Below, in pieces: positions 32,275 to 35,739 of a DNA stretch of 43,151 nt. Source of the DNA: Micrococcales bacterium (GTDB taxonomy: Bacteria > Actinomycetota > Actinomycetes > Actinomycetales > Microbacteriaceae); NCBI GenBank assembly GCA_947489135.1, contig CANLCU010000004.1:1-43151 (forward strand), given 5' to 3'. Under the pieces are notes generated by a model. That model did not search any database. It was not told where the DNA came from and saw nothing but the letters and a program-made list of their open reading frames with translations. Both the position numbers and the translations under genes were made by a program. Position 1 is the first letter of the stretch, and each line of letters starts with the position of its first letter.

Positions 32275-33873
32275 ATGATTAACGTGCGTGAACTTGAGAT
32301 AACCATTGGTGCAAGAGTGTTGATGTCTGGGGTAAATTTCCAAGTATCTAAAGGCGACAAAGTTGGGCTTGTAGGTCGCAATGGCGCAGGAAAAACCACT
32401 TTGACCAAGGTAATAGCTGGAGACTTCCAACCAAGTAATGGCATTGTAGAGCGTATTGGGGAAATCGGTTACCTTCCCCAAGACCCTAGAACTGGTGACC
32501 TTGAAGAATTAGCCAGCGATCGAATCCTCAACGCTAGAGGCCTAGGCACAATCTTGAAGAAGCTGGAAGCTGCTAGAGAGCAGATGGGTTCAGTTGACGA
32601 GGCTGTCTATGACAAGGCTATGGAGCGATACGAGAGACTTGAGAATGAGTTCCAAGCTAATGGCGGTTACGCAGCGGAAGCTGAAGCTGCAGCTATTGCA
32701 AGCAACCTTGGGCTAAAGCCAAACGTACTTAGCCAACCTATTGGAACGCTTTCAGGTGGACAGCGCAGAAGAATTGAGTTAGCTCGAATCCTTTTCTCTG
32801 ACGCTACAACAATGATTCTTGATGAGCCAACTAACCACTTAGATGCTGACAGCATTATCTGGTTAAGGGAATTCCTAAAGAGTTACCAGGGTGGACTGAT
32901 TGTTATCAGCCACGACATCGACATCGTTGAAGAAACAGTTAACAGGGTTTTCTATCTTGATGCCAACCGCGGGGTCATCGATATCTACAACATGGGATGG
33001 CGAGCATACCTAAAGCAACGTGAGGCCGATGAAGAACGTCGCAAGCGTGATCGCGCGATTGCGGAAAAGAAGGCTTCTGTACTGCAACTACAAGCTGCAA
33101 AGTTTGGAGCGAAAGCATCTAAGGCATCTGCAGCTCATCAGATGAACAAGAGAGCTGAGAAGTTACTTAGTTCACTCGATGATGTTCGTGAGAGAGACCG
33201 CGTTGCTAACATTCGATTCCCTGACCCTCAGGCATGCGGTAAGACACCGTTGTTCGGACACAACCTAAGCAAGAGCTATGGGTCTCTTGAAATATTTACA
33301 GCGGTTGATTTAGCAATTGACCGAGGTTCACGTGTAGTAATTATCGGCTTGAACGGTGCAGGAAAAACCACATTGCTTCGCATTCTTGGAGCTGTTGAAG
33401 ATCCTGATACTGGACAGATCGACGCAGGTCATGGACTAAAGATTGGCTACTACGCTCAGGAGCACGAAACTCTTGACGTAACTAAGACCGTTCTTCAGAA
33501 CATGCAGAATTCAGCACCTGAACTAAATGACACTGACGCAAGGAAAGTCTTGGGTTCATTCCTTTTCTCTGGCGATGATGTAGACAAACCAGCAGCGGTA
33601 CTAAGTGGTGGCGAGAAGACTCGATTAGCCCTAGCCGCTCTAGTTGTATCCAGAGCCAATGTATTGCTGCTTGACGAGCCTACGAACAACCTTGATCCTG
33701 CTAGCCGTGAGGAAATACTCAAGGCTCTTGCCTCCTTCACAGGGGCTGTAGTGCTTGTTTCTCACGATGTTGGTGCCGTAGACGCCCTGAATCCTGAGCG
33801 TGTACTTGTCATGCCTGACGGGCAGGAAGACCTTTGGAATGATGGCTACCGCGACTTGATAGTGCTGTCTTAA
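32275..33873 (+). CDS. ABC-F family ATPase (translation factor type)
   Basis: A 532-residue soluble protein with two ABC domains and no membrane segments. The first has Walker A GRNGAGKTT (34-42), signature LSGGQRRRIELAR and Walker B ILDEPTNHLD. The second has GLNGAGKTT, LSGGEKTRLALAAL and LLLDEPTNNLD. The linker between the domains (about residues 240-310) is charged and helical, as in ribosome-binding ABC-F proteins that rescue or tune stalled ribosomes. Some relatives give antibiotic resistance, but this form is a core actinobacterial gene and a housekeeping role is more likely. TTGGAG precedes the ATG by seven bases. Confidence 0.93.
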   Translation: MINVRELEITIGARVLMSGVNFQVSKGDKVGLVGRNGAGKTTLTKVIAGDFQPSNGIVERIGEIGYLPQDPRTGDLEELASDRILNARGLGTILKKLEAAREQMGSVDEAVYDKAMERYERLENEFQANGGYAAEAEAAAIASNLGLKPNVLSQPIGTLSGGQRRRIELARILFSDATTMILDEPTNHLDADSIIWLREFLKSYQGGLIVISHDIDIVEETVNRVFYLDANRGVIDIYNMGWRAYLKQREADEERRKRDRAIAEKKASVLQLQAAKFGAKASKASAAHQMNKRAEKLLSSLDDVRERDRVANIRFPDPQACGKTPLFGHNLSKSYGSLEIFTAVDLAIDRGSRVVIIGLNGAGKTTLLRILGAVEDPDTGQIDAGHGLKIGYYAQEHETLDVTKTVLQNMQNSAPELNDTDARKVLGSFLFSGDDVDKPAAVLSGGEKTRLALAALVVSRANVLLLDEPTNNLDPASREEILKALASFTGAVVLVSHDVGAVDALNPERVLVMPDGQEDLWNDGYRDLIVLS

Positions 33874-33932: not shown

Positions 33933-34640
33933 TTGAATCTAATAACTCTCACTCAGGCTATTTTCATGCTCGGCTTTGTCTCAATGGCAGCTGGAACTCT
34001 ATACTTCGTGCTTGAAAGAACAGAATTAAAACCTGAGCACAAGTCAACAGCTACATATGCTGCTCTTATTACTTTCATCGCAGCTATCTTGTATTGGCAG
34101 ATGAAGGATGTTGTTTCATTCCCAGGTCTTACAGACGTTGCAGCAATCGAATCGACGATGCCACTTAGATACATCGACTGGATTCTTACAACACCACTTC
34201 TACTTCTTGAGTTTGGAATCATCGCATCTCTTGCTGGTGCGCCAAAGGGAACTACCTATCGTCTGGTGCTCGCTGACTTGGTCATGATCATCACAGGCTA
34301 CTTTGGTGAAGTTGGTCAACCTGGAAACATCGGGAACTATGTCAACTTCATTATTTCTTCACTTGCTTGGGCTTGGATTGCTTACACAATCTGGAACATC
34401 AGACCAACTAAGGGTTCAGCAGCAATGAAGAAATCTATCGAGACGATGAAGAAGTTCGTAATCATCGGTTGGGCAATCTATCCAATTGGAACTGCAACAC
34501 AAGAGTTCCTAGAGATCTCTGGAACAGAAGCTCAAACCATTGAACTTGCAGTCTGTGTAGCTGCAATCATCTACGTGTTTGCCGATGTCATCAACAAGGT
34601 TGGATTCGGAATCGTTGCACTTCGAGCAGTTAAGAAGTAA
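33933..34640 (+). CDS. Microbial rhodopsin, probable light-driven proton pump
   Basis: A 235-residue seven-helix type I rhodopsin. The retinal Schiff-base lysine is Lys222 (ADVINKVGFG), with counterion Asp218 four residues before it. Helix C RYIDWILTTPLLLLEF gives the proton-pump triad Asp82, Thr86, Glu93, and Leu90 at the tuning position suggests green absorption. GYFGEVG carries Glu126. There is no His in helix B where proteorhodopsin and xanthorhodopsin have one: Leu53 or Gln56 lies there by eye. Phe139 fills the place of the carotenoid-fenestration glycine, so an antenna seems unlikely. No signal peptide. Retinal-synthesis genes are not in the window. The stop is three bases from that of surf1. 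Confidence 0.93.
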   Translation: MNLITLTQAIFMLGFVSMAAGTLYFVLERTELKPEHKSTATYAALITFIAAILYWQMKDVVSFPGLTDVAAIESTMPLRYIDWILTTPLLLLEFGIIASLAGAPKGTTYRLVLADLVMIITGYFGEVGQPGNIGNYVNFIISSLAWAWIAYTIWNIRPTKGSAAMKKSIETMKKFVIIGWAIYPIGTATQEFLEISGTEAQTIELAVCVAAIIYVFADVINKVGFGIVALRAVKK

Positions 34641-34643
34641 TTC

Positions 34644-35441
34644 TTAATCTAGAAGTTTGTCTTCAATCTCAGCATCTTTATCTCGGTTGAGGATTCTAAG
34701 TTTCCTTGGTGGTAGCCCAGCTTTTCTTCGACGCTCTTGAGAAAGAGTCCATAGGACTGCACCAATTGCCATCAACCCAAACAGAATCCACTGCAATGCA
34801 TAACTTAGATGATTACCTTCACTCAAGATTGGCTTCGGAATCTGCTGTCCCGTTGGAAGACTAGGGGATTCTGATATCAATCTGCCGTAGGCCTGAATGT
34901 AGACATCGCCTCCGAGAGTGGAACTAATCTCAGCAAGATAAAGACTTGAGAGTTGACCCTCAGGAGCTGTTCTATCAAGATCTGGTTCCGATGGACGCAA
35001 TCTGAGTTGCAGCGTTCTTACTTCCTCATTCACTTGAGGAACATCATCGGGAGTATCCGATGAACTACCAGTTGGAAGCCAACCTCGTTCAACCCAGATG
35101 ACAGAACCCTCGTTTGTCCTGAAAGCAACCAGTTGCAAGAATCCTGGATAGGCGTTCAAAGGACGGTTTCTTACTAGATAGCTTTGGTCAGGAAGATACT
35201 CACCTTTAACCGAAACTGATCGGAACTCAAAGGTGTCTCGCCAAGAATCATCTGGTCTAAGTACCTCGATTAGTTCTTTGGACTCTTCGTTGTAGTTGGC
35301 CTCAATCAGGTTGTTCTTCGCTACTACTTCAGCTTGCCTGTCGAACTGCCATTGGGATAAGAACCAGCAGGCAACTGTGAAGGACACAACGAGAAGTGCC
35401 CAACTTAACCAGTTTCTCTTTGGGCTACTTGTTGTCTTCAT
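34644..35441 (-). CDS. SURF1-family cytochrome oxidase assembly protein
   Basis: A membrane protein of about 265 residues with one helix near each end (WLSWALLVVSFTVACWFLSQW and ALQWILFGLMAIGAVLWTL), the SURF1 layout. The core shows FEFRSVSVKGEYLPDQSYLVRNRP (in two parts) and WVERGWLPTG, family hallmarks. It helps insert heme A into the oxidase, fitting ctaA and ctaB. The frame is open to 35531, but the ATG at 35441 is preferred: AAAGAG lies five bases upstream and the conserved first helix follows at once. This start overlaps the end of the DUF3099 gene by 17 bases. Confidence 0.9.
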   Translation of the reverse strand: MKTTSSPKRNWLSWALLVVSFTVACWFLSQWQFDRQAEVVAKNNLIEANYNEESKELIEVLRPDDSWRDTFEFRSVSVKGEYLPDQSYLVRNRPLNAYPGFLQLVAFRTNEGSVIWVERGWLPTGSSSDTPDDVPQVNEEVRTLQLRLRPSEPDLDRTAPEGQLSSLYLAEISSTLGGDVYIQAYGRLISESPSLPTGQQIPKPILSEGNHLSYALQWILFGLMAIGAVLWTLSQERRRKAGLPPRKLRILNRDKDAEIEDKLLD

Positions 35442-35739
35442 TCTTACTCTTTGCAGCCTTGAACGAATCGGCAGAAATACTGATTGTTGGAGCTTCTGCA
35501 GACTTTCTAGATGAATTGGAGGAGTTTGCACCTTGGGCGTTAGCTATGACAACAGCGAAATATGGAAGGAATATGGCTCCAGAGGCGAATAGCACTGTAA
35601 GCCAACCTAGCGGCACGATAACCGCTAAAACCACGCAGATAACTCTGATAATCATGGCTACGGTGTACTTTATGAAGCGAGATCTACGCTCTTCTTCAGG
35701 CGAAACCTCCAGAGAAGTTACCGACTGAGCTTTAGACAA
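35425..35739 (-). CDS. DUF3099 small membrane protein
   Basis: A 104-residue protein of unknown function recognised as DUF3099 by TSLEVSPEEERRSRFIKYTVAM near the N-terminus (in two parts). Two hydrophobic helices occupy about residues 27-48 and 50-70; a polar, Ser/Lys-rich tail follows, probably cytoplasmic. The start is TTG with an AGGA about nine bases upstream. Actinobacterial genomes often carry it near surf1 and fabG, as here. It overlaps the surf1 start, so the two are likely one transcript. No function can be assigned. Confidence 0.85.
   Translation of the reverse strand: MSKAQSVTSLEVSPEEERRSRFIKYTVAMIIRVICVVLAVIVPLGWLTVLFASGAIFLPYFAVVIANAQGANSSNSSRKSAEAPTISISADSFKAAKSKNEDNK

Follow-up and report, generated by a model that had tools for sequence, protein, structure and literature searches.

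The rhodopsin clade considered here was in print in 2018 as the 'Exiguobacterium subcluster', with the bacteriorhodopsin C3B54_11643 of Pontimonas salivibrio (PMC6106888). In 2025, West et al. reported for four named species of Rhodoluna the co-occurrence of 'AcR' and 'ESR Type-1' rhodopsins (PMC12422013), and 'ESR Type-1', the second rhodopsin of those Rhodoluna, is the type of the clade member studied here. When produced in E. coli, the P. salivibrio DTE rhodopsin WP_104913209.1, which is most likely the single clade gene of genome G510 (L092), showed absorption at 538 nm (PMC7979833). The transport assays of that study covered four proteins with shifts of at least 20 nm; the shift of the P. 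salivibrio protein was +18. The excerpts of the open-licence literature contained no other measurement on clade members, no transport assay of any of them, and no description of the missing helix B His or of the Glu donor of the clade.

Among solved structures the best match of the protein was ESR, the rhodopsin of Exiguobacterium sibiricum (PDB 4hyj), with 166 bits, followed by a match of 105 bits. In ESR His57 is paired with Asp85, and the proton donor is a Lys, for which carboxyl residues can substitute functionally (K96D and K96E; PMC8387761). The H57M replacement raised the pKa of the ESR acceptor to 6.3, the mutant absorbing at 565 nm at pH 5 and at 517 nm at pH 8.5 (PMC10743670). Gloeobacter rhodopsin H87M, a monomer with a pKa of ~3.7, retains M formation and proton movement (PMC6656774). 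Bacteriorhodopsin resembles the window protein in having a lone Asp acceptor (Asp85, with a reported pKa of ~2.7), the place of the His being occupied by Met (PMC6656774). It differs in belonging to another branch, in its Asp donor and in its Glu194-Glu204 release pair (PMC12002130), candidate release residues being at other places in the window protein.

The gene and its phylogenetic position

The window, i.e. the whole stretch of 43,151 nucleotides analysed, belongs to a genome of 1.09 Mb (79% complete) from a freshwater actinobacterium, whose genus is most likely Rhodoluna. The rhodopsin gene lies where the initial annotation had placed it, at 33933-34640 on the forward strand, and encodes 235 amino acids between a TTG start and a TAA stop codon; the relatives L031, L033 and L008 have ATG at the equivalent codon. 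A profile search matched the protein to PF01036 (Bac_rhodopsin) with an E-value of 8.2e-42 and 143.6 bits (cut-off 24.6). This match and the retinal-binding Lys222 in helix G identify it as a type 1 (microbial) rhodopsin, the only Bac_rhodopsin match of the genome. A heliorhodopsin gene cut by a contig end was also seen there (G000:C62:1-456). The rhodopsin gene is under purifying selection: dN/dS was ~0.07, ~0.08, ~0.09 and ~0.11 in comparisons with L031, L033, L008 and L003, respectively, at dS values (1.2-1.6) that are near saturation.

Phylogeny was inferred from 61 sequences, 35 of the clade and 26 other rhodopsins. Eight near-duplicates (L078, L084, L086, L087, L091, L094, L100 and L102) were left out of the tree and of the key-site table. 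The window protein fell into a clade with a support of 98/91 and outside the ordinary actinorhodopsins, which nested in the xanthorhodopsin-Gloeobacter group (group support 100/100). Forcing the clade and the actinorhodopsins together cost 105 log units and was rejected by the AU test (p-AU 2.0e-5). The separation from classical actinorhodopsin proposed in the initial annotation was thus borne out; that annotation mentioned neither the affinity to ESR nor the earlier publication of the clade. Against the window protein, actinorhodopsins of the same genus scored 43-70 bits, whereas clade members scored 306-445 bits. On these scores and the AU test, actinorhodopsin identity was rejected. The Rhodoluna actinorhodopsin RlActR shares with the window protein the host genus, the DTE motif and the green type, but it keeps the His, has Gly at the fenestration site and Ala before the retinal Lys, and identity between actinorhodopsins and the window protein is ~27-33%. 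The actinorhodopsin of G006, a genome of the same genus, is identical to PDB 9hfk over 264/264 residues; we infer that this entry comes from R. lacicola. The identity with 9hfk and the pair of rhodopsin types published for Rhodoluna are the grounds on which the genus was assigned.

A group uniting the clade with ESR was absent from the best tree and was not rejected by the AU test (p 0.43; with L034 and L036 added, 0.48). Because L035, L036, 9r22 and 9jov sit on long branches, the deepest part of the tree is uncertain. ESR and the window protein are alike in the length of the BC segment, in Thr87 following Thr86, and in Asn before the retinal Lys. Unlike the window protein, ESR has the His57-Asp85 pair, the Lys donor, Tyr at site 187, Arg-Glu at 210-211 and a shorter stretch between helices F and G. 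A viral origin was considered and set aside, as one scan of viral_contigs returned no relative.

Residues of the proton path

The key-site alignment confirmed the reading of Asp82-Thr86-Glu93, Leu90 and Lys222, and added Arg79 and Asp218. The protein thus has the DTE motif and the Arg, Asp and Lys of a proteorhodopsin-type proton pump. The codons, all on the forward strand, are at 34176-34178 for the counterion and presumed proton acceptor Asp82, at 34188-34190 for Thr86, at 34200-34202 for the green-tuning residue Leu90, at 34209-34211 for the presumed donor Glu93, and at 34596-34598 for Lys222, the site of retinal attachment. Asp82 and Lys222 are invariant in all rows. Leu90, which we take to be homologous to proteorhodopsin residue 105, is Leu in 43/43 clade rows.

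Clade residues were counted in 43 aligned intact members; L106, whose gene is in two pieces, was excluded. Arg79, Asp82, Thr86, Asp218 and Lys222 are kept in all 43. Site 93 is Glu in 42 members and thus lacks the Lys donor typical of the ESR group, which is present in ESR, L034, L035 and L036. The one exception, L083 (genome G780), has Ser in place of the donor Glu and would be a natural pump that either has no donor or uses another one.

The only His of the window protein is His36, in agreement with the absence of a helix B His noted in the initial annotation, which had offered Leu53 or Gln56 as the equivalent of proteorhodopsin His75. Helix B aligns without gaps to that of ESR (AAILYWQMKD in the window protein, AAIHYYFMKD in ESR), and this alignment puts Leu53 (codon 34089-34091, forward strand) opposite the ESR His and rules out Gln56. 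At this site the proteorhodopsins, ESR and actinorhodopsins have His. In line with the initial annotation, actinorhodopsins retain the residue, which was found in 10/10 of their rows; it is H62 of RlActR (PMC11790970). This actinorhodopsin trait, a His beside the acceptor Asp, is absent from all clade members compared (Met 28, Leu 12, Phe 3; His 0/43), whereas the 26 other rhodopsins have His in 20, Ala in four and Asn in two cases. His was lost at least twice on the tree. Loss of His alone is not unique to the clade, since the bacteriorhodopsin-like rows and two Lys-donor rows also lack it. The latter are the relatives L034:4992-5678 and L036:4962-5717, which have Asn at the site, so that the Lys donor and the His do not always occur together.

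At the xanthorhodopsin fenestration site the assignment of Phe139 (codon 34347-34349, forward strand) was correct. This column is Gly in xanthorhodopsin, in Gloeobacter rhodopsin and in 10/10 actinorhodopsin rows, and Phe (42) or Met (1) in the 43 clade rows. As far as the sequence goes, the fenestration Gly of the carotenoid-binding xanthorhodopsin type is therefore missing, as had been stated. The missing fenestration is not special to the window protein, because ESR has Tyr and 9r22 has Phe at the same site.

The initial annotation had described two loops as longer than in green proteorhodopsin; in the present comparison the proteorhodopsin 9jov served as stand-in for the latter. Between site 53 and Arg79, across the BC loop, there are 26 steps, seven more than in 9jov (19); the length is, however, not unusual, its counterparts in ESR and in the actinorhodopsin L010 measuring 25 and 27 steps. 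From Glu126 to Ser142 there are 16 steps, against 14 in 9jov and 20 in ESR. The stretch from site 187 to site 222, connecting helices F and G and passed over in the initial annotation, is long relative to ESR: 35 steps in the window protein, 27 in ESR, 29 in 9jov, 33 in xanthorhodopsin and 32 in L010.

Thirteen columns (12, 42, 53, 75, 156, 187, 188, 190, 191, 210, 211, 215 and 235) set the clade apart from the other rows, and with the usual topology ten of them presumably lie in the extracellular half. Site 187 in helix F (Thr187, codon 34491-34493, forward strand) is Thr in 42 clade members and Val in one, and aromatic in 26/26 others (Tyr 14, Phe 8, Trp 4); the aromatic residue changed at least once on the tree. 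Counting from Trp180 of bacteriorhodopsin, we take Thr187 to correspond to Trp189, a position that would put it beside the retinal ring. The measured Pontimonas protein is atypical of the clade at two sites, having Val at 187 and Phe at 214; its His site is occupied by Met.

At the extracellular end of helix F the clade has a polar pair, Gln190-Glu191 in the window protein (codons 34500-34505, forward strand). Site 190 is Gln in 33 and Glu in 10 clade members, site 191 Glu in 29 and Gln in 14, and neither residue occurs at 190 or 191 in the 26 other rhodopsins. In helix G, Ala210-Ala211 (codons 34560-34565, forward strand) is conserved in 43/43 clade rows. Site 211 of the others is Glu (12), Gln (5), Asn (5), Val (3) or Gly (1), and the pair at 210-211 is Arg-Glu in most actinorhodopsins as well as in ESR, L034 and L036. 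The Arg of the exit path is bonded, in the proteorhodopsin MAR, by a Glu that lies eleven positions ahead of the retinal Lys (PMC12002130). By counting, the position of this Glu is Ala211 in the window protein, and Gln190-Glu191 may have taken over part of its task.

Distribution, genomic site and retinal supply

The window type was found in 12 of 67 genomes of the genus, that of the window included, with scores of 306-500 bits. Nine of the 12 also have an actinorhodopsin (43-59 bits), and heliorhodopsin exceeded the cut-off in nine. Of the window type and actinorhodopsin, only the former was seen in G000, G026 and G022, genomes that are 70-82% complete. In a sample of the family, 35/398 genomes, from 7/85 genera, gave a match at E<=1e-20. 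In the phylum sample (396 genomes, cut-off 1e-15) the other matches had at most 71.8 bits, and in the order sample (cut-off 1e-25) 1/396 genomes matched, namely the window's own; since both samples cover few aquatic genera, absence of the clade elsewhere does not follow. In G857 the rhodopsin gene (L106) is split into two parts that lie in different reading frames, and this genome has two heliorhodopsin matches.

Upstream of the rhodopsin gene lies, at 32275-33873 on the forward strand, the gene of an ATPase with two ABC_tran matches and one ABC_tran_Xtn match, which we call a putative ABC-F-type ATPase. Downstream, at 34644-35531 on the reverse strand, a SURF1 family protein is encoded (PF02104, 5.2e-31). 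The gene has the same two neighbours in 10 of the 11 other window-type Rhodoluna genomes; in the remaining one, G071, the contig ends at the rhodopsin gene and the SURF1 side alone is visible. Ten Rhodoluna genomes without the rhodopsin gene were queried, and in nine of them the ATPase and SURF1 genes directly adjoin each other; in the other, G012, SURF1 had no match. These fixed neighbours indicate that a single locus either acquired or lost the rhodopsin gene. Beside the empty site, the SURF1 frames of L125 (G003) and L128 (G001) carry one and three in-frame stops, respectively.

Neither PF15461 nor PF03055 had a match in the 12 window-type Rhodoluna genomes, several of which are incomplete, while a phytoene synthase family member was detected in ten, two of them partial. 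PF15461 is present in G062, of the same genus, and in the Pontimonas genome G510. Window-type Rhodoluna probably take up retinal, in line with the case made by West et al. for the majority of Luna-1 (PMC12422013).

Proposed function

We think it likely that the protein is an outward light-driven proton pump from an ESR-related clade of Microbacteriaceae, with a lone Asp acceptor. Light would isomerise the retinal on Lys222, and the Schiff base proton would pass to Asp82, acting without a helix B His like Asp85 of bacteriorhodopsin. Glu93 on the cytoplasmic side would reprotonate the Schiff base and be refilled from the cell. The proton would leave past Arg79 by a rebuilt outward path, helix G having lost its Glu, which the Gln/Glu pair of helix F probably replaces. 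Pumping, its direction, the role of this pair and any effect of pH are what we infer from the residues. Pumping is favoured by the conservation of the full set of pump residues in the clade, by purifying selection, by the folding of a clade member with retinal in E. coli, and by the carboxyl donors that work in ESR, and the Gloeobacter H87M mutant makes pumping without the His plausible. Among the ORFs adjoining the gene we saw none resembling a transducer gene; this and the ATPase and SURF1 neighbours also count for a pump. On the other side, the ESR H57M mutant suggests that such a protein might pump poorly at mildly acidic pH, and the atypical residues at 187 and 214 weaken the argument drawn from the measured member.

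The same mutant lends some weight to a pump that is off at neutral and acidic pH, Asp82 having a high pKa without the His, and useful in alkaline, bloom-time water only. The 538 nm of the Pontimonas protein falls between the two absorption values of ESR H57M; the low pKa values of Gloeobacter H87M and of Asp85 in bacteriorhodopsin argue against this version, which we regard as possible but not likely. ESR H57M and Gloeobacter H87M, both of which lack the other changes of the clade, disagree on the direction of the pKa shift; a single pKa prediction from the loss of His was dropped for that reason, and the altered pH dependence suggested in the initial annotation is no more than a possibility.

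Somewhat doubtful, too, is a more specific form of the pump, in which the whole outward half would have been rebuilt on the bacteriorhodopsin plan, combining a lone Asp acceptor that has Met, Leu or Phe at the place of His with a new release site at Gln/Glu 190-191 replacing the helix G Glu. If this were true, proton release would be early, and acidic water, which brings His-Asp pumps to a halt, would not end the pumping.

That the protein is a light sensor and not a pump appears improbable. Cho et al. cite a report of an Exiguobacterium rhodopsin as a weak pump and sensor (PMC6106888), in three of the 12 window-type genomes the rhodopsin is the sole pump seen, and the heliorhodopsins of nine point to light sensing in the genus. 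The donor Glu, for which a sensor has no need, is kept in 42/43 clade members. No transducer was seen beside the gene, and in P. salivibrio, too, Cho et al. detected no transducer (PMC6106888). A decaying gene kept by chance is hardly credible: decay does occur in the family, as the split gene of G857 shows, but the low dN/dS against four relatives, the intact gene in 34/35 matching genomes of the family sample and the retention of every pump residue speak against it. Nor, although actinorhodopsins are widespread in the genus and the host is an actinobacterium, is a common actinorhodopsin in which a few residues deviate at all plausible, given the scores within the genus, the AU test under the model used, and the actinorhodopsin present elsewhere in nine of the 12 genomes.

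The clade itself was known from the work of 2018 and 2025; the open-licence literature covered here yielded no prior mention of its missing His. If the protein is the lone-Asp proton pump that we favour, the clade, without a His usually called conserved in bacterial pumps, is a natural test of the role of this residue. One published study even suggests that an ancestral pump might have functioned as a His-less monomer, though it considered the idea risky. A whole natural clade, found in seven or more genera of a single family and with one protein that E. coli has been shown to produce, makes it possible to test the acceptor pKa, the oligomeric state, the stability and the moment of proton release. 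Since nine of the 12 window-type Rhodoluna genomes also encode a His-bearing actinorhodopsin, the two designs occur side by side in one cell.
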